DNA of 61,592 nucleotides from an uncultured Clostridia bacterium (GTDB lineage Bacteria > Bacillota > Clostridia > Christensenellales > Pumilibacteraceae). The notes under the pieces were generated by a model. The model ran no database searches and had not been told where the DNA came from. It was given only the letters and a program-made list of their open reading frames with translations. Where the stretch lies: the NCBI GenBank assembly GCA_947178255.1, contig CAMWXP010000005.1:1-61592 (forward strand), in the 5' to 3' direction. Shown here piece by piece: positions 1 through 37,276 of this stretch; position 1 is the first letter of the stretch, and every line of letters starts with the position of its first letter. Position numbers and translations under genes: made by a program.

Positions 1-1578
1 TAGACAAACTATACGGCGGCGTAGGTGTTCAAACGCAATTACCACCAGCCCGCCACAAGCACCCAATTTGAACCCAAGAGGAACAAATTGAGTGCTTTTT
101 CTATTTGTGCGGTATTCGCGGAGTTCGTTTAAGTCGCTTTTGTCTAACTTTACTTTTGTCGGCGTGTTCGGCGAAGTGTTGTAAAAGATATAAACGCAAT
201 CATCAAATAAAACCACGCGGTATATGAACGAGTTGAAAAACTCGTTCTTTTCTTCGCCGTTTTCGTATTGTTTCCGCGCAAAGTAATTTAAGAACGCTTT
301 TACTTTTTCGTAGTCGAGTGGCTGTATTTGACGAGCTTTTTCAACCGCAATCTTGCTTTCCAACTCGTCGTTTTGTCGTTCTAATTCAAGCAATTTCTCT
401 TTCGTGGACTTCGTAACTATGCCTGCCGCTATTGCCGAAAGAAAACCGTCGATTGCTTTCTGTGCTTGTTTTTGTTCCTTTTCAAGTAGTGCAAGCGTGT
501 CGGACTTTTGCAAACCTTCGTTAAACTTTTCGGTAACCGTAAGCGCAAGTTTGTCTATAACGCCCGATTGTAATACATACTCAACAGTCTTTCCGAAAAC
601 CAAATCTTCCAACTTCTCTTTGGTAATATTAGACTTATTGCATTGTTCTTTGTGTAGTTTACGGTTAAAGCACTTGTAGTAGTGGTACACCTTTCCCGTA
701 TGGCTTGTTCCGTCCTCGGCTGTCATAAGCGTACCGCAGTTGCCGCAAAACAGTTTTCCGCTAAGTATGTATTCGCTGTGTCCTTGAACTGCTTTTTGTT
801 TGTGCCGTTGATTGTCCATTATCCTATTGCAAACAGTAAAGGTTTGTTCGTCCACAATCGCAGGCACTATGTTGGTGTATGTAGTGCCGTTGCTTATAAC
901 CACGCCCATATACTTGCTGTTGCGGATTATCTTGGCAAAAGAGTTGACCGTGAACTTCGCGCCGGTTTTGTTGTGTATGCCCATTTCGTTTAAGCGGTTG
1001 ACTATGCTTTTCGCTTTCTCTCCGTTCTTGTAACGCTCGAACATATCTTTCACTATGGGCGCTTCAATCGGGTTAATAGTCCAACGCTTGTCCACGACGT
1101 CATAGCCGAATAACTTGTATCCGCCTATAAAGTAACCTTTACTCAAACTTTCTCTAATACCGCGCCGTACCTTTTGCGAAAGCTCGGCGGAGTAGTATTC
1201 TGCCATACTTTCAAGAACACCCTCGATAAGAATGCCGCTTGCATCTTCGGTTATATTTTCTTTTGCCGAGAGTACGCGCACGCCGTTTTTCTTTAACTTT
1301 GCCTTGTAGTTCGCACTGTCGTAACGGTTACGAGCAAAGCGGTCGAGTTGGTAGACAAGAACATAATCGAACGTCTTTTTCTTGCTGTCCTCAATCATTT
1401 GCAAAAAGTTGGGACGCTTGTCCGTCGTTCCAGTCAAGGCTCGGTCTATGTATTCTCCAACAATAAGTAAGTCGTGCCGCTTGGCGTAGTCATAGCATTC
1501 CCGAAGCTGACCTTCGATTGATTGTTCCGTTTGCGTGTGCGAACTGAATCTCGCATATATAACCGCTCGTTTATTCAT
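1..1578 (-). CDS. Large serine recombinase (partial, runs off left edge)
   Basis: The reading frame is open from an ATG at 1578 to the window edge, giving 526 codons without a stop. The N-terminus has the resolvase signature YARFSS, whose serine is the expected nucleophile, followed by SIEGQ and YQLDRFARNRY. A recombinase domain follows at about residues 160-260. A zinc-ribbon with CGNCG and two later cysteines spans about 280-335, and a charged coiled-coil tail follows. This order is that of large serine integrases, which integrate and excise elements at att sites. The SD AAAGGAGAAC lies just upstream of the ATG. The gene points out of the island, so its 3' end probably lies at the element boundary. 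I infer that it mobilised the 1-10.35 kb segment. Confidence 0.93.
   Translation of the reverse strand, partial: MNKRAVIYARFSSHTQTEQSIEGQLRECYDYAKRHDLLIVGEYIDRALTGTTDKRPNFLQMIEDSKKKTFDYVLVYQLDRFARNRYDSANYKAKLKKNGVRVLSAKENITEDASGILIEGVLESMAEYYSAELSQKVRRGIRESLSKGYFIGGYKLFGYDVVDKRWTINPIEAPIVKDMFERYKNGEKAKSIVNRLNEMGIHNKTGAKFTVNSFAKIIRNSKYMGVVISNGTTYTNIVPAIVDEQTFTVCNRIMDNQRHKQKAVQGHSEYILSGKLFCGNCGTLMTAEDGTSHTGKVYHYYKCFNRKLHKEQCNKSNITKEKLEDLVFGKTVEYVLQSGVIDKLALTVTEKFNEGLQKSDTLALLEKEQKQAQKAIDGFLSAIAAGIVTKSTKEKLLELERQNDELESKIAVEKARQIQPLDYEKVKAFLNYFARKQYENGEEKNEFFNSFIYRVVLFDDCVYIFYNTSPNTPTKVKLDKSDLNELREYRTNRKSTQFVPLGFKLGACGGLVVIAFEHLRRRIVCL
27..55. repeat. Left att-like half repeat (candidate attL)
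   Basis: The sequence is GTTCAAA, 14 variable bases, then GCCCGCCA. It lies in the 3' end of the recombinase frame. The same two blocks with the same 14-base gap recur at 10295-10323 in the same orientation. That encloses the recombinase and the whole defence operon. The match is only 15 of 29 positions, so the assignment is tentative. Confidence 0.35.
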
Positions 1579-28111: not shown

Positions 28112-29119
28112 CTAAATATTATACACCGCCTCGTCAAACAAATAGCCGTCCTTATTGCTGCGCACTCCGTATGTAGTTCTTTTTGCCAAATCGAATAATT
28201 TGTTCGCGTCAATTCCGACACATTTGTCTATCGATAATAAAAATTGTTGCGCACTGGGATGGAACGTAGACGTAGTTACAAACATACCTTTTGTTCCGCC
28301 TTTTGCGCTTAACGCACCATAAAATTCTCTAACTTCCTTTTCGGTAATCTGCGCATTTCTACGACACTTCCCCTGTATCATAATTTTTTCCGTAAACCCA
28401 AGCTCGTCTACCGTATCGATTACAACATCTATTCCGCCGTCGTTGACACCTCCGACAATATCGCAATTTATAACATCTCTTCCCGTGAGTACAAAATACT
28501 TTTCAAGTAAGCTCGCTATAAATTTCTCGAAAAATTTTCCTCCGCAATCGCAAAGCCGTTCGATAAAAATATGTTCAAAAGTTTCTTCATTTACAGGGTG
28601 TTTCGGGTAAGTCTTTTTTGCTATTTGCGCAGCTAGCGAGTATTTGCCATCGTCCAAAATTACATTAGCGTCATCTACGAGCTTGCGCAATACATTTCCC
28701 GCTAATCCTTTTAAAGCGTTATCGTCATCAATCGTCGGTGTTTTATCTGTTTGAAAATATTTTTGCAAAGCAGTATATAAATCTTTCTTTGTATAAGCCC
28801 TTTTCCCTAAAAAATTCAGTATTGCGTTTCGGCATCTCTCTTCTTTTACTACTACTGCCTTTTCTTTTAAAAGAGAATAGTAATTGTTTGTTTTGACTAT
28901 TGTACCATTTGTAATCATATCTGTCAAAACAGTGCCTATGTAACTACGTATTTTATTACATTTTGAGTTACAGGATCGATTTTGCTTTTCTTTATCAGAA
29001 AAGCCATACATATCCAATACCCCTTCTATAACTTGCTTACGCGTCTCGGCCTTATTAAAAGAAAGATAATCTAAAATCGCAGCTAAAACTTTTTGTTTTT
29101 CTTCACTTGTAATTGCCAT
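28112..29119 (-). CDS. Mrr-like type IV restriction endonuclease
   Basis: This 335-residue protein starts at ATG 29119; the longer frame to 29230 runs through the tRNA gene and is rejected. Residues about 1-190 look like winged-helix repeats (VLAAILDYLSFNKAETRKQV). The C-terminal Mrr catalytic domain has FEKFIASLLEKYF, GGVNDGGIDVVIDTVDEL and MIQGKCRRN, the D...QxK nuclease motif, and GTKGMFVTTSTFHPSA. Such enzymes cut modified or foreign DNA. It is the only gene of a 1.2-kb islet between tRNA-Ala and a duplicated tRNA 3' end, so horizontal acquisition is likely. Confidence 0.87.
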   Translation of the reverse strand: MAITSEEKQKVLAAILDYLSFNKAETRKQVIEGVLDMYGFSDKEKQNRSCNSKCNKIRSYIGTVLTDMITNGTIVKTNNYYSLLKEKAVVVKEERCRNAILNFLGKRAYTKKDLYTALQKYFQTDKTPTIDDDNALKGLAGNVLRKLVDDANVILDDGKYSLAAQIAKKTYPKHPVNEETFEHIFIERLCDCGGKFFEKFIASLLEKYFVLTGRDVINCDIVGGVNDGGIDVVIDTVDELGFTEKIMIQGKCRRNAQITEKEVREFYGALSAKGGTKGMFVTTSTFHPSAQQFLLSIDKCVGIDANKLFDLAKRTTYGVRSNKDGYLFDEAVYNI

Positions 29120-29180
29120 ATTTTCCCCATTTGTTTCTAATATACAAAAACCTAAAACGAGCTTCGTTTTAGGTTTCGTT

Positions 29181-29256
29181 TGGTGGAGATAGTGGGACTC
29201 GAACCCATGACCTATGCGTTGCGAACGCATCGCTCTACCAACTGAGCTATATCCCC
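29181..29256 (-). tRNA. tRNA-Ala (anticodon CGC)
   Basis: A full cloverleaf is visible. The acceptor stem GGGGATA pairs with TATCTCC, the D arm is GCTC/GAGC, the anticodon stem is ATGCG/CGCAT with loop TTCGCAA, and the T arm is ATGGG TTCGAGT CCCAC. The 3' ACCA is encoded. Confidence 0.97.
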
Positions 29257-29348: not shown

Positions 29349-30068
29349 CTAATGTATCTTTTTGCTCTTTCCGTCCGCTATTTCGTATGCGTCGCCGTAA
29401 AAATGTTTAGTGCCATCCTTATCTATTAATATATAGGAGTCGTTAGGCAAGCCTATCATTCTCTTTCCCATAGACATAGGCAAAATATAATCCTTGGCTA
29501 TGTCGAAGTCCTCGCACGGGAATTGGTAGCTGTCAGTCTGCCCGTCGTAGTGCGGAATAAGCAATTCGTCCACAATGCCCATGCCTGTCACCCACCGCGG
29601 GTCTTGTAGGTCGGCAAGCTCCTCGGGAAAATTCGGTACTGCCCTGCAAAGCCCCATCGACCCCGCTGATATGCCTATGACTATCTCGTCATAGTTCTCT
29701 AAAATATCCTTTAATCCTATCCGTTCGAAAAACTTGCACTGCCCCACGCATTTGCCGCCGCTTAGTATAATCAAATCCGCGCCCGAAACAATTTCGTTTG
29801 CGTTCTTTTCGTTGCGGCTGTCGAGCATGATATTTTGCTTAAAGCCCAGTCCCGTCAAGCGAAAGCTTTCGGAAACACAAGCGAGTTTTTCGTCGTTGTC
29901 CTCTGTATCGTCGGGATTGTTCGCAACAATGACAAGCCTATCCGTGCGCTTTAAATACTTGCGGATATTGGTGAGTATATTATTTTCATCGCCCAGCGCA
30001 ACGGGTACTCGCCCGCCGTTGTCGTCGTAGTAATGGGTGCGCAATAAGCTTGTCAAAAAAATAACCAT
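29349..30068 (-). CDS. Peptidase E-like protein (S51 family, class I glutamine amidotransferase fold)
   Basis: This 239-residue protein starts at ATG 30068 after AGGAGAAAAATT. The nucleophile elbow GISAGSMGL (about residue 133) with serine, LSGGKCVG before it and LIPHYDGQT after it match S51 dipeptidase E relatives, which cleave Asp-X dipeptides. Clostridial members are often annotated as type 1 glutamine amidotransferase-like. The active-site serine is present. The gene is divergent from the YcaQ-like gene across about 100 bp. Confidence 0.87.
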   Translation of the reverse strand: MVIFLTSLLRTHYYDDNGGRVPVALGDENNILTNIRKYLKRTDRLVIVANNPDDTEDNDEKLACVSESFRLTGLGFKQNIMLDSRNEKNANEIVSGADLIILSGGKCVGQCKFFERIGLKDILENYDEIVIGISAGSMGLCRAVPNFPEELADLQDPRWVTGMGIVDELLIPHYDGQTDSYQFPCEDFDIAKDYILPMSMGKRMIGLPNDSYILIDKDGTKHFYGDAYEIADGKSKKIH

Positions 30069-30139
30069 AATTTTTCTCCTGCCTAAATATTCTATCATAT
30101 TCGGCGCAAAATTTCAAGCTGAAAAATTTATATTTGCCG

Positions 30140-30168
30140 TTGCCTATAACTTTGGTTTATGGTACAAT
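30140..30168 (+). promoter_or_regulatory. Promoter giving a leaderless transcript
   Basis: TTGCCT and TACAAT are 17 bp apart, and the ATG at 30175 lies 6 bases past the -10 box. Confidence 0.7.
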
Positions 30169-30174
30169 GTTGAT

Positions 30175-31374
30175 ATGAGAGAAATCACGAAAGAGCAACT
30201 TCGAAATTTTTACATAAACTACCACTTCGGCGGGCTGTTCGACATTAGCGAGCAAGCGGCAATCGAAGGAATTTTCGACCGCATACAAACAGTTCAATTC
30301 GACCCGCTGAACGTTTGCGGGCGAAACGCCGAGCTCGTCTTGTTTTCGCGCAACCGTAACGTTACGCGCGAAACGCTGTATAACGCGCTTTACCGCAGCC
30401 GCGTACTTGTGGACGGCTGGGATAAGATGATGAGCATATTTCCGTCCGAATTCTTTCCGCATTTCTGTCATGTGCGCGAACAATCGGTTAAGCAATACGA
30501 ATGCTGGATGGCGTGGCGCAAGCAACAAGATTGCCATGCGTACATGGATGAGATTTACGCATACGTGCAAAACAACGGGCCCGTTCTCGTAACCGACATT
30601 CCATCCCCGAAAACGAACAACTGCAACTGGGGCCCGTCCAAGGTAGCAGGAGTATGCTGCGAATACCTGTGGAATGCCGGCAAGATTTCCGTGGCCGACA
30701 AAAAGGGCGTGGTAAAATACTACGACACAACTGACAAGCTGTTGGGCGACCTTTCCGCACAAATGGTGTTCGCCGACGAGCATGAGTTTTTGCTGTGGTA
30801 CGTTAAGCGCCGCATTGCCGCTGTCGGCGCGGTGTGGGATAAAAACGGCGGGGCTTGGCTCGGTTTATTCATAGAAAAGGGCGAAGGGCGCACTCCGATA
30901 ATAAACGAGCTTGTCGAGCGCGGCGAGATAATCCCCGTCCGCGTCGAGGGCGAAAAAGCGCCGTTCTATATTTGCCGCGAGGCGTTGCCGGTGTTGGACG
31001 CTCCGCCGCCCGCCGCCGACCGTGCAATACTGATCGCGCCGCTTGACAATATGATTTGGGACAGGAAGCTTGTCAAAAACATTTTCGGCTTCGATTATTC
31101 GTGGGAGGTATACGTTCCCGCCGCCAAGCGCAAATTCGGGTATTACGTATTGCCTATCGTTATAGGCAACCGCTTTGTCGGACGGTTAGAGCCTGCACAG
31201 TACAAGCCCAACGAAAAATTCACGATAAAAAACGTTTGGTGGGAAAACGGTTACTCACCCACCGACGGCGATATAGATATGATAGCCGCCGAGCTTGTTC
31301 GGCTTACCGACTTCCTCGGTGTGAAAGCAAACCCGAAAATAAATAAAATACTATCGCGCAAAACACACAAATGA
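30175..31374 (+). CDS. YcaQ-like winged-helix protein (DNA crosslink glycosylase family)
   Basis: This 399-residue protein begins MREITKEQLRNFYI at a leaderless start; a longer frame to 30037 crosses the promoter and is rejected. It has IQTVQFDPLNVCGRNAELVLFSR near 40, the YcaQ/AlkX-type signature, then winged-helix units and the terminal APLDNMIWDRKLVKNIFGFDY with RLEPAQYK. The family includes glycosylases that unhook interstrand crosslinks, though specific activity cannot be read from sequence. The Nudix gene follows 23 bases downstream. Confidence 0.85.
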   Translation: MREITKEQLRNFYINYHFGGLFDISEQAAIEGIFDRIQTVQFDPLNVCGRNAELVLFSRNRNVTRETLYNALYRSRVLVDGWDKMMSIFPSEFFPHFCHVREQSVKQYECWMAWRKQQDCHAYMDEIYAYVQNNGPVLVTDIPSPKTNNCNWGPSKVAGVCCEYLWNAGKISVADKKGVVKYYDTTDKLLGDLSAQMVFADEHEFLLWYVKRRIAAVGAVWDKNGGAWLGLFIEKGEGRTPIINELVERGEIIPVRVEGEKAPFYICREALPVLDAPPPAADRAILIAPLDNMIWDRKLVKNIFGFDYSWEVYVPAAKRKFGYYVLPIVIGNRFVGRLEPAQYKPNEKFTIKNVWWENGYSPTDGDIDMIAAELVRLTDFLGVKANPKINKILSRKTHK

Positions 31375-31397: not shown

Positions 31398-31940
31398 ATG
31401 GAATTATTTGATTTATACGACGTAAACCGCAGACCTCTCGGCACAAAAATGATGCGCGGCGGCGTTCAGCCGAAGTGCGCGTACCGATTGGTCGTGCATA
31501 TTTGTATATTTTCGAGCGACGGCAAAATGCTGTGCCAGCGCCGTGTAAAAAGCAAAAAGGTTTTTCCTAACATGTGGGATTTATCGTGCGGCGGGTGCGT
31601 GGACAGCGGCGAAACCTCGATCCAAGGCGCAATACGCGAAACGCGCGAGGAATTGGGTTTGACCCTGCCCGCCGACATAACGCCGTCGCTTACCGTTTAC
31701 TTTAACTACGGTTTTGACGATGTTTTTTGCACAACGATGGACGTGAACGAAAAAGATATTGTCTTGCAGGAGTCCGAGGTTGCGGAGGTAAAGTGGCTGA
31801 CCGCCGAGCAAATAAAATCGATGATTGACGAAAAAACCTTTATCCCCTACGACAAGTCGTACATAGACTATTTGTTTTACTGCCAAAACCACCGCGGACT
31901 GACCGACAAGGAAACGCCGCTTAAAGGCGACAGAAAATAA
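31398..31940 (+). CDS. Nudix hydrolase
   Basis: This 180-residue protein has the complete Nudix box GG-x5-E-x7-REVREEL-like: GGCVDSGETSIQGAIRETREELG at about 62-84. It follows an N-terminal FDLYDVNRRPLGTKMMRG typical of IPP-isomerase-like/YfcD-type Nudix proteins. The probable substrate is a nucleoside or prenyl diphosphate. SD TGGAGGGATT precedes the ATG. Probably cotranscribed with the YcaQ-like gene. An AT-rich GAATTC-type repeat follows its stop. Confidence 0.9.
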   Translation: MELFDLYDVNRRPLGTKMMRGGVQPKCAYRLVVHICIFSSDGKMLCQRRVKSKKVFPNMWDLSCGGCVDSGETSIQGAIRETREELGLTLPADITPSLTVYFNYGFDDVFCTTMDVNEKDIVLQESEVAEVKWLTAEQIKSMIDEKTFIPYDKSYIDYLFYCQNHRGLTDKETPLKGDRK

Positions 31941-31974: not shown

Positions 31975-32029
31975 GTAACCAAATCGCATAATTACCTCAT
32001 ACAATATAAAAAAGATACATCGATTTTTA

Positions 32030-32076
32030 CTACATATCTTCCGTCGTACCACGGCGATGATATGTAGTTTTTTATT
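32030..32076 (+). promoter_or_regulatory. Leader hairpin with T-run upstream of the DUF11 operon
   Basis: ACTACATATC / GATATGTAGT, with inner CGTCG/CGGCG, is followed by TTTTTTATT, 20 bases before the ATG and just before AAAGGAGG. It is a terminator-like attenuator or an mRNA-stabilising stem. Confidence 0.6.
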
Positions 32077-32095
32077 ATACAAAGGAGGTATTTAT

Positions 32096-33799
32096 ATGCC
32101 TTTTGTTCAACGGTATTCGGACGTGAAAAAGGGCGGGATCGTTTTTACCGGCAACACGCTGGGACTGAGCAAAGCGTCCAACCAGAACGCGCCCGGGACG
32201 CTCGGCTCGATTGGCGCGTTCACAAGTCTGAACACGGCGTTGCAGGTGGGAATGTTCCCTGCAGGCACCACGCTCGACTACACGCAAAACGGGTCGCGTG
32301 CAATCCTAAACATGCCCGCTGGCTCGACGGTGCTGTACGCCGAGCTGGTGTGGGGCGGACTGTTTCGCTCGTCGGTCAACAACATTTCGGCGGTGACAAA
32401 CAACAGCATAACCTTTACCACACCGAACGGAACGTTCACCGTAGCGCCCGACCCCGCGACTGCGCAAAACTTTAACATTCCCGCAAACGACATAACCGTC
32501 GGGTTTTACGTGCGCTCGGCAAACGTGACTTCGCTCGTTCAAGCCGCATTGTCGGGCACTTATGCCGTTCAAGGGGTTCCCGCGCTAATCGAGGCTTTGG
32601 ACAACCGCACCGCCGACACCAACCATGCGGGGTGGACGCTCGCGGTCGCGTACGAAAACGCTTCGCTCCCCTTGCGCAACATGACGGTGTGGAGCGGCGG
32701 CAACGTGGTATCGCCCAACACGGGCAGCACTACAATAACCGTGTCCGACTTTCTCACGCCCGAGGTGCAGCCTATAACGGGCAAGCTGTTTGTTTCGGCG
32801 CAGGAGGGCGACGCGGTGCTGACCGGCGACCGCATGCTTTTCGGGCAAAGCATAGCGACGCTCGCTCCGCTGTCCGGCGCGAACAACCCGCAAAGCAACT
32901 TTTTCGCATCGCAAATAAACAATGAAAACGGCACGCTCGACACGAGCGGCACATTCGGCAACCGCAACGCAAATGCCGCCGCCGGCACAAACACTTCCGC
33001 TTGCCGTCAAGGCTGGGACATAACCGCCGTCGACGTTTCGCCGCTTCTCGCCGCCGCCCAGACGGGCGCGGTCATTAGATTCACCAGCGACGGCGACTTG
33101 TACGTGCCCAATGCGCTTGCGCTGCAAATAGACAGCACGGGCGCAAACCCCGTAATAACCAAGTCCGCCGACAAAACGTATGCCGAGGTGGGCGAACAAA
33201 TAACGTACACCCTCGACATTCAAAACACCGGCGCGGTCAGTGCGCTTAACGTGACGGTAAACGACATGCTTCCGCTAGAGACGGCGCTTGTGCCAAACTC
33301 CGTCACCGTGGACGGCGTTCCGTATGCGGGTGCACTCCCCGTAGTAATCGCAGAGATTGCGCCCGACCAAACTGTAAGCATTTCGTTTAAGGTGACGGTA
33401 AATGCGCTCCCCGCCGTCAATCCCGTGTTCAACATTGCGCGCGCCGACTACGAGTTCTTTCCGTTCGCGGGCTATCCCGCCACCAGCTTTTCCAACTCCA
33501 ACCCCGTTGCCGTATATATCATTTCTCGGCAAATGACCAACGTGAAAAGCGTTGACAAGACGTTCGCCGTTGCTGGCGATATACTGACCTACACTTCGGT
33601 CATAAAAAACACTGGCAGCGTGCCCGTAACCGACGTTGTATTTAAGGATAGTATCCCCGTCGGCACGACTTTTGTAAACGGCTCGGTGACGATAGACGGC
33701 GTGAGCTACCCCGCATATAACCCGCAAGTAGGCTTTTTCGCGGCTAACTTGACCCCGCAGGCAAGCGTTACCGTCACCTTCCAAGTGCAAGTAAACTAA
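32096..33799 (+). CDS. DUF11 repeat surface protein, large
   Basis: This 567-residue protein sits behind a very strong SD, AAAGGAGGTATTTAT. There is no signal peptide: the N-terminus is MPFVQRYSDVKKGGIVFTGN. Residues about 1-345 are a beta-rich domain with STVLYAELVWGG and GWTLAVAYEN. Two DUF11 units follow (about 350-450 with NPVITKSADKTYAEVGEQIT; 470-567 with NVKSVDKTFAVAGDILTYTS). Proteins of this type in Bacillota are linked to outer spore or cell surfaces. High GC and Thr/Asn/Ala-rich composition differ from neighbours. First gene of a three-gene operon. Confidence 0.82.
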   Translation: MPFVQRYSDVKKGGIVFTGNTLGLSKASNQNAPGTLGSIGAFTSLNTALQVGMFPAGTTLDYTQNGSRAILNMPAGSTVLYAELVWGGLFRSSVNNISAVTNNSITFTTPNGTFTVAPDPATAQNFNIPANDITVGFYVRSANVTSLVQAALSGTYAVQGVPALIEALDNRTADTNHAGWTLAVAYENASLPLRNMTVWSGGNVVSPNTGSTTITVSDFLTPEVQPITGKLFVSAQEGDAVLTGDRMLFGQSIATLAPLSGANNPQSNFFASQINNENGTLDTSGTFGNRNANAAAGTNTSACRQGWDITAVDVSPLLAAAQTGAVIRFTSDGDLYVPNALALQIDSTGANPVITKSADKTYAEVGEQITYTLDIQNTGAVSALNVTVNDMLPLETALVPNSVTVDGVPYAGALPVVIAEIAPDQTVSISFKVTVNALPAVNPVFNIARADYEFFPFAGYPATSFSNSNPVAVYIISRQMTNVKSVDKTFAVAGDILTYTSVIKNTGSVPVTDVVFKDSIPVGTTFVNGSVTIDGVSYPAYNPQVGFFAANLTPQASVTVTFQVQVN

Positions 33800-33828
33800 C
33801 AAACAAATTACCAAAGGAGAAAAATATC

Positions 33829-34602
33829 ATGATAATACCCAATCAGTCAAACGTTGCGTTCAACTACGTTTTGCCCGACGGTCAAACGATTGCCGCCGAG
33901 CTGGACAGCAATATCGTCAATACGGAAATACTGACCTACTCCGTACCCAAAATCAAGAGCGGCGACAAAACGTTTATGCAAGAGGGCGAAACCTCCGTTC
34001 ACACCGTCGTCATCACCAACAATTCCACCACCACGCTTTTAAACATGTCGCTTAAAGACAATATGTCTCCCGGCGCGACGTACGTTGCGGGCAGCGTTAC
34101 CGTCAACGGCGTATCGCAACCGACGTACGACCCGATAGCGGGCTTCATATTGCCCGACCTCGCCGTGGGCGCTTCGGTGACGGTAACATACACCATACAG
34201 GCCAACAACCCCATGACGCAGTCGCCCGTTACCGACTACGCCACGCTCAATTACAGCGTGAACGACCCGACGCGCAGCATTGTGAACTTTTCGGAAAACA
34301 CCAACACCGTGTCGGTGCAGATTATTTCCAACCGCATAACCAACGTGAAAAGCGTGGATAAAGCTTTCGCCGTTGCGGGCGACACACTGCACTACACGTC
34401 GGTTATCACCAACACCGGCTCGCTGTTAAAGAGCGACCTTGTGTTTACCGATCCTATTCCCGTCGGCACTACGTTCACGGCCGGCAGTGTAAAAATAAAC
34501 GGCGCGGCGTTCCCCGCCTACGACCCGCAAGCGGGATTCGCTCTACCTGACCTTGCCGTGGGCGCAGCGGTCACAGTGGAATTCGACGTTACGGTGAACT
34601 GA
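33829..34602 (+). CDS. DUF11 repeat protein, small
   Basis: The 257-residue protein follows 30 bases after the first DUF11 gene, with AAAGGAGAAAAATATC as SD. Two DUF11 units (KSGDKTFMQEGETSVHTVVI and NVKSVDKAFAVAGDTLHYTS) repeat the C-terminal unit of the larger protein almost word for word, so the pair arose by duplication. No signal peptide. Its TGA is one base from the start of the cysteine-rich peptide gene. Confidence 0.82.
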   Translation: MIIPNQSNVAFNYVLPDGQTIAAELDSNIVNTEILTYSVPKIKSGDKTFMQEGETSVHTVVITNNSTTTLLNMSLKDNMSPGATYVAGSVTVNGVSQPTYDPIAGFILPDLAVGASVTVTYTIQANNPMTQSPVTDYATLNYSVNDPTRSIVNFSENTNTVSVQIISNRITNVKSVDKAFAVAGDTLHYTSVITNTGSLLKSDLVFTDPIPVGTTFTAGSVKINGAAFPAYDPQAGFALPDLAVGAAVTVEFDVTVN

Positions 34603-34603
34603 C

Positions 34604-34825
34604 ATGGCAGAAATAATCAATATTTCAAACGTGACCGATTTGAGCGGCAATCCGCCCATCATCACGCCGAGCAATCCGGTAACGACGGTAATAAACGACC
34701 CGCCGCCCATGCCGCCGTGCTACTGTTGCTGTTGCTGCGAATGCGACTGCTGTTGCGATTGCCATTGTTGTTGTCGTAAATATTGCTGTAACTGCCGTCG
34801 TTGCTGTTATTGCCGTTGTAAATAA
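34604..34825 (+). CDS. Cysteine-rich small protein (21 Cys in the last 35 residues)
   Basis: This 73-residue protein has an ordinary N-terminal half ending in PPPMPP, then a tail with runs such as CYCCCCCECDCCCDCHCCC and five arginines. One base separates its ATG from the DUF11 stop, so it is translationally coupled. The tail could crosslink by disulfides or bind metal. Its linkage to DUF11 proteins suggests a cross-linked surface or spore layer. Known spore-coat CotX/CotZ-type and CXC-rich peptides are analogies only. TGC and TGT codons alternate, so simple slippage expansion alone is unlikely. Confidence 0.8.
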   Translation: MAEIINISNVTDLSGNPPIITPSNPVTTVINDPPPMPPCYCCCCCECDCCCDCHCCCRKYCCNCRRCCYCRCK

Positions 34826-34960: not shown

Positions 34961-37276
34961 ATGGAAGCCGAAAGACTTGATATAGATAAAACCTTGGCGT
35001 ATCTTACGCGCGAGGAAAAACTGAGGATGCTGTCGGGCGACGGCATGTGGCACACGTTCGGTACGGGCGAGCTGCCGCGGCTTAGAATGTCCGACGGGCC
35101 TAACGGGCTGCGTATGACGGGCGGTGCGGGCATGTCCGTCGCCGTGCCCGCTACCTGCTTTCCCACGCCCTGCATGCTTGCCAACAGCTGGGACGCAGCG
35201 TTGTGTTACAGCGTGGGCGCGGCTATCGGCAGAGAAGCGACAGCCCTGGGCGTAAACGTTTTGCTCGCGCCCGCGATCAATATTAAACGCAATCCACTCG
35301 GCGGGCGAAACTTCGAGTATCTGTCCGAAGACCCCCTGCTCGCCGGCGAGCTTGGCAAAGCAATCGTCGCGGGCGTTCAGTCCACCGGCGTTGGCGCGTG
35401 CGTTAAGCATTTTGCCGCCAACAGTCAGGAATCGTTGCGCATGTATTCCGATTCTATCGTCGACGAACGGGCGCTGCATGAGATATACCTTAAACCGTTC
35501 GAAATAGCGATGCAAGTCCAACCCGCCGCCGTAATGTGCGCATACAACAGGCTTAACGGCGCATACTGCTCGGAAAACGAGTTCCTATTAAAAACTATTT
35601 TGCGCGACGGTTGGAAGTACGACGGCGTTGTGCTCTCCGACTGGGGCGCGGTGCACGACCGCGCAAAAGCGCTTAAAGCGGGGCTCGATCTTGCAATGCC
35701 TTGCGCCGACGACGAATATTATAACTCGCTTGTTGCCGCTTTGGACAGCGGCGAAATAACCGAGCAAGACGTTGATACTGCGCTTGCCCGAATACTTAGG
35801 CTTATAGACGACAGGTACTTGGAGCCGTACGGTGATATTGACAGCGAAATGCACGAGCGCGTAGCGTACAACGCCGCCGCCGCGAGCCTTGTCCTGCTCA
35901 AAAACGAAAACGAAATGTTGCCGCTTACCAAAAACTTGAAGGTGGCGGTTTGCGGTGATTACTTTATTTCCGCACCCATTCAGGGCGGCGGAAGTTCCCA
36001 CGTAACAGCCATAAAAGACATTACGCCGCTGAGTGCGTTTGTGCAACGCGCGATCGAAGTGAAATATATCGATGATTATTCGGACGCGGTGGGGCAAACG
36101 GAAGGCTACGACGCCGTTGTCGTATTCGCCGGTCAACCCGCGCCCACCGAGAGCGTCGACCGCCAAACGCTATCCTTACCCGCCGAGCAGGACGAGCTTA
36201 TAACCGAGCTGACCGCCGCGGGGCGCGACGTCGTAGTTGTGCTTTGCTCCGCGGGCCCCGTGCTTATGCCGTGGATCAACCGCGTGCAAGCGGTGCTGTA
36301 CGCCGGACTTAACGGCGAGTGCGGCGCGCTTGCCGCCGTGGACGCGCTGTACGGCCGAATCAATCCGTGCGGCAGACTTGCCGAAACATTTCCCCTTACC
36401 CAAGAGAATTTCGGCGACGACTTCGGCGGAAGCCGAGCGGTGTACCGCGAAAGCATTTTTGTAGGCTACCGCTATTACGACAGCGTGGAAAAGCCGGTGC
36501 TGTTCCCGTTCGGGCATGGGTTAACCTTTTGCAACGTGCAGTACGACGACGTTCACGTAAAACGGCGTGACGACGACGGTTTTGACGTTACGGTAACTCT
36601 TACCAACCTATCGGCACGCGACGCATACGAAACGGTGCAGGTGTACATATCCGACCGAACAGGCCGAATAATTTGCGCCAAAAAACAGCTTGCAGGCTAT
36701 GCCAAGGTGTTTGTGGAAGGTCAAACAACGACCACTGCCACCGTACGGCTGAATAAAAGCGCTTTTGAATTTTTCAATGCGCAAGCGAATGCTTTTGATA
36801 TATGCGACGGCGAATACAAAATTATAGTGGCGGCATCGGCGACAGATATTAAACGAGAAGTTTCCGTCAAGGTAAACGGAAACTTTTTCGGGCGCGAAGC
36901 CACGCAGTACATCAAGCCCAACCTCACCGAAATTACCGACGCGGAATTCGAACGCATTTACGGCGCGCCGCTCCCCGCAGTATCCGAGCGCCCTAAGCGC
37001 GGAAGTTTTACTCTCGACTGCTGCGTGGACGATATAAAAGACACGTTTATAGGAAAAATAGTAAAGCGCATTGTTATGCGCCGAGCAAAGGCCGCAGGCG
37101 CAGTCGGGTCTGTCGAACACAAAGCGTTTATAGCCTCGGCAATGTTCACTCCGCTGTATGCGGTAAGCGCAATGTCGGACGGCGACATGCCCATATCCAC
37201 CGCCAAAGGCATAGTGGAAATGGCTAACGGGCACTTTTTTAAAGGGCTTAAAACAATATTAAAAAAGAACAAGTGA
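34961..37276 (+). CDS. Glycoside hydrolase family 3 beta-glucosidase-like enzyme
   Basis: This 771-residue protein has the N-terminal TIM barrel with SDGPNGLRMTGG, NIKRNPLGGRNFEYLSEDP, KHFAANSQE, and the nucleophile aspartate in VVLSDWGAVHD (about 227). The second alpha/beta domain spans about 310-510 (GGGSSHVTAI, GRLAETFPLT). A fibronectin-III-like end follows (FPFGHGLTF, VTLTNLSARDAYETVQVYI), and then a unique 120-residue tail. There is no signal peptide, so it probably acts on imported oligosaccharides. Leaderless promoter at 34924. The exact sugar is not predictable. Confidence 0.92.
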   Translation: MEAERLDIDKTLAYLTREEKLRMLSGDGMWHTFGTGELPRLRMSDGPNGLRMTGGAGMSVAVPATCFPTPCMLANSWDAALCYSVGAAIGREATALGVNVLLAPAINIKRNPLGGRNFEYLSEDPLLAGELGKAIVAGVQSTGVGACVKHFAANSQESLRMYSDSIVDERALHEIYLKPFEIAMQVQPAAVMCAYNRLNGAYCSENEFLLKTILRDGWKYDGVVLSDWGAVHDRAKALKAGLDLAMPCADDEYYNSLVAALDSGEITEQDVDTALARILRLIDDRYLEPYGDIDSEMHERVAYNAAAASLVLLKNENEMLPLTKNLKVAVCGDYFISAPIQGGGSSHVTAIKDITPLSAFVQRAIEVKYIDDYSDAVGQTEGYDAVVVFAGQPAPTESVDRQTLSLPAEQDELITELTAAGRDVVVVLCSAGPVLMPWINRVQAVLYAGLNGECGALAAVDALYGRINPCGRLAETFPLTQENFGDDFGGSRAVYRESIFVGYRYYDSVEKPVLFPFGHGLTFCNVQYDDVHVKRRDDDGFDVTVTLTNLSARDAYETVQVYISDRTGRIICAKKQLAGYAKVFVEGQTTTTATVRLNKSAFEFFNAQANAFDICDGEYKIIVAASATDIKREVSVKVNGNFFGREATQYIKPNLTEITDAEFERIYGAPLPAVSERPKRGSFTLDCCVDDIKDTFIGKIVKRIVMRRAKAAGAVGSVEHKAFIASAMFTPLYAVSAMSDGDMPISTAKGIVEMANGHFFKGLKTILKKNK

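Follow-up and report, generated by a model that had tools for sequence, protein, structure and literature searches.

How could two DUF11 proteins and a short cysteine-rich protein, encoded side by side in an uncultured gut bacterium, belong to one structure? To our knowledge, the DUF11 domain is widespread and has no known function, and hardly any work has been done on the spore surfaces of gut Clostridia that remain uncultured. The operon considered here, which consists of two DUF11 genes (gene 1 and gene 2) and a Cys-rich gene (gene 3), lies in a window of 61,592 nucleotides, the window being the whole stretch of DNA that was analysed. Its gene borders, natural fusions and the Cys tail suggest a way in which DUF11 proteins could be linked both with one another and with a spore. 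We propose, with a probability of about 60%, that the three products form a spore-surface assembly in which subunits complete each other by strand complementation and a disulfide-forming tail serves as anchor.

Organization and conservation of the operon

The initial annotation had described two DUF11 genes followed, one base past a stop, by a 73-aa Cys-rich protein, with a strong Shine-Dalgarno sequence and a leader hairpin ahead of the operon and signal peptides absent from the two DUF11 proteins. The ORFs are present as described, as are the Shine-Dalgarno sequence (AAAGGAGG) and the hairpin (Table 1), and no N-terminal hydrophobic segment was found in the three products, the highest Kyte-Doolittle mean of any 15-mer within the first 45 residues being 0.57-0.69. 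Gene 1 and gene 2 products both matched DUF11 in Pfam (PF01345, E=5e-17 and E=1.4e-15), with scores of 62.7 and 58.1 bits against a gathering score of 24.6, and they also matched the NCBIfam family B_ant_repeat. They contain 1 and 0 cysteines, respectively. As for the neighbouring genes, no connection to the operon is evident for the peptidase S51, AlkZ-like, NUDIX and GH3 genes.

Table 1. Positions of the operon features and of nearby genes in the window
Feature	Window position	Residues	Strand	Detail or basis
Mrr-type restriction endonuclease	28112-29230		-	Mrr_cat E=3.3e-20
Peptidase S51, neighbour	29349-30098		-	
AlkZ-like DNA glycosylase, neighbour	30037-31374		+	
NUDIX hydrolase, neighbour	31398-31940		+	
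sigmaK/sigmaE-like promoter	31977-32006		+	AAC(C) -35 at 31977-31980; -10 CATACAATA at 31998-32006
5' leader hairpin	32030-32067		+	Outer stem CTACATAT/ATATGTAG, inner stem, then U-tract
Gene 1 Shine-Dalgarno AGGAGG	32083-32088		+	Sequence
Gene 1	32096-33799		+	ORF, 567 aa
Gene 1 head domain		1-346	+	43-48% identity to Priestia plasmid proteins
Gene 1 complete DUF11		about 354-480	+	Pfam DUF11, NCBIfam B_ant_repeat
Gene 1 second DUF11 core, last hairpin absent		about 484-567	+	Pfam DUF11, NCBIfam B_ant_repeat
Gene 2	33829-34602		+	ORF, 257 aa
Gene 2 donor-like N-terminal hairpin (NQSNVAFNYVLPDG...DSNIVNTEI)	33829-33936	1-36	+	hhalign against gene 3 N-terminus
Gene 2 complete DUF11 and second core without last hairpin		after hairpin	+	Pfam DUF11
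Gene 2/gene 3 junction TGA-C-ATG	34600-34606		+	1 nt between stop and start
Gene 3	34604-34825		+	ORF, 73 aa
Gene 3 hairpin		2-30	+	Sequence
Gene 3 proline spacer PPPMPP		between hairpin and Cys tail	+	Sequence
Cys-rich tail	34718-34822		+	21 Cys in 35 residues; 8-27 Cys across 30 loci
GH3 glycosidase, neighbour	34961-37276		+	

The gene 3 tail had been noted for 21 cysteines in 35 residues, and indeed all 21 of the protein's cysteines fall in its last 35 residues, while other ORFs of the window have at most 9 in any 35. Comparison with the closest relative (G012) revealed 8 synonymous and no nonsynonymous changes in the first 34 codons, followed by a tail whose sequence changes freely with its Cys richness kept. 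Judged from these codon changes, the N-terminus of gene 3 is under purifying selection, and translation of the gene is supported by conservation together with synonymous substitution. A pseudo-ORF arising from TGY repeats was considered and ruled out by shuffles, in which runs of five TGY codons have an expected count of 0.00, by frame conservation and by the synonymous substitutions.

When 84,980 species genomes were searched using an alignment of gene 2, 38 loci were found, each of which comes from Clostridia or related bacteria that are uncultured or metagenome-assembled. A Cys-rich ORF with 8-27 cysteines lies directly 3' of gene 2 in 30 of the 38, so that the objection raised with the initial annotation, namely that the Cys-rich frame might not be conserved, fails, and the three-gene synteny that it had suggested looking for is confirmed, with the set occurring in addition in fused or reduced forms. 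Gene 2 relatives were present in 34 of 396 sampled genomes of the host's order, and matches in the wider class were weak. Two loci, L042 (10860-12133, minus strand) and L043 (7487-9597, minus strand), encode proteins of 123-124 aa made of a hairpin and a DUF11 core near Cys-rich ORFs, which look like a distant or reduced version within the same family.

DUF11 domains at the gene borders

By profile alignment, the gene borders split DUF11 domains, a new finding that the initial annotation had missed. For gene 2, in the window and in relatives, the DUF11 match at the C-terminus ends at position 84 of the 114 of the Pfam profile. In a natural fusion of gene 2 and gene 3 found in genome G013 (a single locus listed as L038, L075 and L091), which forms one ORF of 336 aa, the match extends across the former border to position 105 of 114. 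Moreover, a profile of the gene 3 N-terminus, built without the fused protein, matches that protein at residues 260-289 (E=3e-10), and the N-termini of gene 2 and gene 3 match each other (hhalign, E=7e-5), with a common NxSxV...SNxVxT pattern whose columns are at least 90% conserved. By hhalign, nothing convincing was found between the gene 3 hairpin and gene 1, nor between the gene 2 N-terminal hairpin and gene 1 or the remainder of gene 2. Considering both the truncated DUF11 match and the homology of the N-termini, gene 2 and gene 3 each open with the kind of hairpin that is missing from the preceding protein. Other fusions join further parts: gene 1 and gene 2 are fused in L098, with gene 3 separate, and a single ORF of 641 aa in L106 encodes the head, DUF11, the hairpin and the Cys tail. 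On the strength of these natural fusions, we argue that the parts meet within one assembly.

To our reading, the assembly would work as follows. The gene 1 and gene 2 proteins both end in an Ig-like DUF11 domain without its final beta-hairpin, and the N-terminal hairpin of the next protein would complete it, giving a head-to-tail strand complementation in the order gene1::gene2::gene3. Gene 1 carries the head and gene 2 would act as an extension, while gene 3 would close the chain, its proline spacer and Cys tail anchoring the whole through disulfides to a Cys-rich coat or exosporium. Strand complementation between the subunits is, as a matter of judgement, reasonably probable.

AlphaFold was run on the naturally fused gene 2::gene 3 relative with 35 aligned sequences. 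Results showed a well-predicted region at residues 1-258 (pLDDT about 92), in which the gene 2 N-terminal hairpin has strands at 2-14 and 20-33, followed by an unfolded gene 3 part (pLDDT about 30) for which the alignment has no other rows; without alignment the pLDDT was 40. As the gene 3 part is unfolded in the model, strand donation is something that we infer. Searches by sequence found no solved relatives, and a Foldseek search against the PDB yielded nothing beyond generic matches (Ig-like folds, integrins, adhesins and pilins), with TM below 0.5.

An alternative arrangement would be one in which the products are spore-coating proteins, each circularly permuted so that its N-terminal hairpin completes its own C-terminal DUF11 core, with Cys cross-linking maintained and no interlocking of subunits. 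The high confidence of the gene 2 N-terminal hairpin within a single AlphaFold chain would agree with it, as would the short L042 and L043 proteins, which look like a hairpin with one DUF11 core. However, gene 3 has a hairpin without a DUF11 core and directly follows a core lacking one, and fusions restore DUF11 across gene borders, so we regard self-completion as unlikely.

Promoter and leader hairpin

Upstream of the operon, an AAC-N15-18-CATA motif occurs in 20 of 27 loci versus 3.1 in dinucleotide shuffles (maximum 9), and the longer form AC-N15-18-CATANNNTA occurs in 15 of 27 versus 0.97 (maximum 4). The published sigmaK consensus is mACm-N16-CATA-N3-TA (PMC5749712). With a spacer of 18 nt after AAC, that is AACC-N17-CATACAATA, the window promoter is close to this consensus and by its sequence sigmaK-like, while CATATAAT may be readable as a sigmaA element instead.

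The initial annotation had offered two outcomes for this locus, a disulfide-hardened surface or spore layer and a metal-binding coat, and it is the former that finds support. It agrees with the sigmaK-like promoter, with the lack of export signals, with a Priestia homologue among endospore appendage genes (see below) and with the presence of SpoIVA in the host genome. SpoIVA was found in 20 of 23 operon-bearing genomes tested; since 336 of 398 sampled genomes of the phylum (84%) also encode it, this co-occurrence is uninformative and leaves sporulation plausible. We propose that the operon product would be a spore-surface (coat or exosporium) appendage or adhesin, made by the mother cell late in sporulation, and a spore-surface location is, again as a judgement, quite likely. 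Many envelope proteins contain DUF11 (PMC5749712), which would also be compatible with a vegetative cell-surface or S-layer-type protein instead of a spore protein; considering that signal peptides and hydrophobic segments are absent and that the promoter is sigmaK-like, we find this improbable.

The leader hairpin is conserved together with the operon. The exact leader motif precedes it in some 20 related loci, most often at 54-81 nt from the ATG, with a near-invariant outer stem and an inner stem that is variable yet paired. In the alignment 94% of cells are paired and 5 pairs show double changes, and the covariation score exceeds those of all 500 shuffles, which ignore relatedness, and of all slid controls. 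The hairpin is present in a single copy in the host genome. Among 190 genomes of the order, matches of the leader with its U-tract precede the operon or, in G234, an apparent gene 1 remnant, and two further matches of this search look like chance. The G234 case (L143, G234:C62) has the hairpin and U-tract followed by an apparent gene 1 fragment, and looks like a decayed copy of the operon. No Rfam family matches the hairpin; our guess is that it stabilises the mRNA near its 5' end.

Relation to known spore appendages

Stronger than SpoIVA as a link to spores is the homology of the gene 1 head to Priestia plasmid proteins (43-48% identity). In Priestia megaterium, the protein WP_047933945.1 is encoded on plasmid pPmC-142-6 among three S-ENA endospore appendage genes. 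Like the operon, this protein has a head and DUF11 core (47.7% identity over aligned pieces), then a hairpin with SNxVxTVI and a Cys tail; unlike the operon, it is a single polypeptide with few tail cysteines and has S-ENA genes around it. On another Priestia plasmid, pBM-Cp-1-3, the head adjoins genes of DUF4183, the F-ENA family (PMC11952670). The S-ENA and F-ENA are fibres formed on the spore surface at the time of sporulation and joined by beta-strand augmentation and disulfides; an N-terminal linker of Ena1C with Pro and Cys has been proposed to attach to the coat, and F-Anchor-3 contains DUF11 domains (PMC12921279, PMC11952670). The operon itself is free of Enas and DUF4183 domains, and none were found in the host genome. 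Pfam searches found Enas (PF13157) absent from the three operon proteins, and it was not found in 25 genomes, a search run without a positive control genome. The Priestia S-ENA proteins are picked up by the model. DUF4183 (PF13799) was likewise not found in the operon or in the operon-bearing genomes searched. As neither family was found in operon-bearing genomes, the operon product would be a different assembly.

Two loci deserve mention in this context. At L135 (NZ_CP069612.1, 2607-5896), a P. megaterium plasmid has, about 20 nt past one S-ENA gene and with two more adjoining, a gene for a DUF11 head protein that also carries the hairpin and a Cys tail. We single out this protein as a candidate tip or anchor protein of S-ENA; according to PMC12921279, the proteins that make up the S-ENA tip fibrillae are unidentified. 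At L137 (NZ_CP058265.1, 3518-13341), DUF4183 and collagen-DUF4183 genes adjoin the gene of a giant 'tandem-95 repeat' protein, which shares this head domain.

The ribbon-like spore appendages of Clostridium taeniosporum are encoded by a cluster (CRD1, CRD2, P29a, P29b, GP85 and CL2) with DUF11 proteins and sigmaK-type promoters (PMC5749712). CRD1 (564 aa) and P29 (269 aa) can be likened by size and DUF11 content to the 567 and 257 aa of gene 1 and gene 2, and a tandem operon with sigmaK-type promoters (sigmaK-like here) is common to both systems. On the contrary, collagen-like proteins belong to the C. taeniosporum cluster and are missing from the operon, while a Cys-rich protein and DUF11 domains split across genes are features of the operon not described for that cluster. 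Cys-rich proteins also cross-link the exosporium, as in CsxA, ExsY and CdeC (PMC7333573), which share with the operon a disulfide cross-linked spore-surface assembly, for the operon a proposal; gene 3 differs in having its cysteines limited to a short tail on a DUF11 hairpin, and by Pfam and NCBIfam (E<=1) it is not a member of the CsxA, ExsY, CotY or CdeC families. By analogy, chaperone-usher pili are also built from Ig-like subunits that lack a strand, which the N-terminus of the following subunit supplies, but the operon products have no signal peptide, would donate a two-strand hairpin instead of a single strand and would probably assemble usher-free in the mother-cell cytoplasm.

A more detailed version of the strand-complementation model would be a Gram-positive spore fibre based on donor-hairpin exchange between split DUF11 domains, with a gene 2 shaft of variable length, gene 1 as tip adhesin, gene 3 as terminator and Cys anchor, and control by the leader hairpin. 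The gene 2 protein, in which an unoccupied donor hairpin is combined with an open acceptor core, would polymerise into this shaft, and we consider this version tentative and rather doubtful. Counting against the proposed spore-surface assembly as such, gene 2 paralogues without a Cys partner occur in L077, L079, L081 and L083 (257 aa, partial in L083), the first three preceded by the same leader hairpin as the operon.

As for the metal-binding coat, the Cys tail would be a metallothionein-like metal-binding or thiol-buffer module with the DUF11 proteins as its scaffold, for which the Cys density and the His and Asp/Glu residues interspersed in the window tail could speak. However, the gene 3 product has no match in Pfam or NCBIfam at E<=1 (in Pfam, none of metallothioneins), its cysteines drift in number from 8 to 27 and in spacing across the 30 loci with no fixed motif, and the DUF11 proteins to which the tail is joined are structural and have appendage-linked homologues; the claim is thus unsupported, and we hold this reading to be very improbable.

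Returning to the three separate proteins of the proposed assembly, most relatives have a gap of 1 nt between gene 2 and gene 3 (TGA-T-ATG or TGA-C-ATG), and others have TAA-ATG (gap 0), an overlapping ATGA, or gaps of 14 and 16, some with their own Shine-Dalgarno sequence. That gene 2 and gene 3 encode one protein by programmed +1 frameshifting at UGA-C/U, as the UGA-N-AUG in the +1 frame of most relatives and the gap-free alignment of the shifted reading to the fused relative L075 could suggest, is hardly credible and was rejected on the grounds that the frame of the junction varies from one species to another, no single frameshift explaining the gaps of 0, 14 and 16, the overlaps and the separate Shine-Dalgarno sequences. 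Proximity alone is conserved at these junctions, which as a sequence pattern fits coupling of gene 2 and gene 3 by termination-reinitiation.
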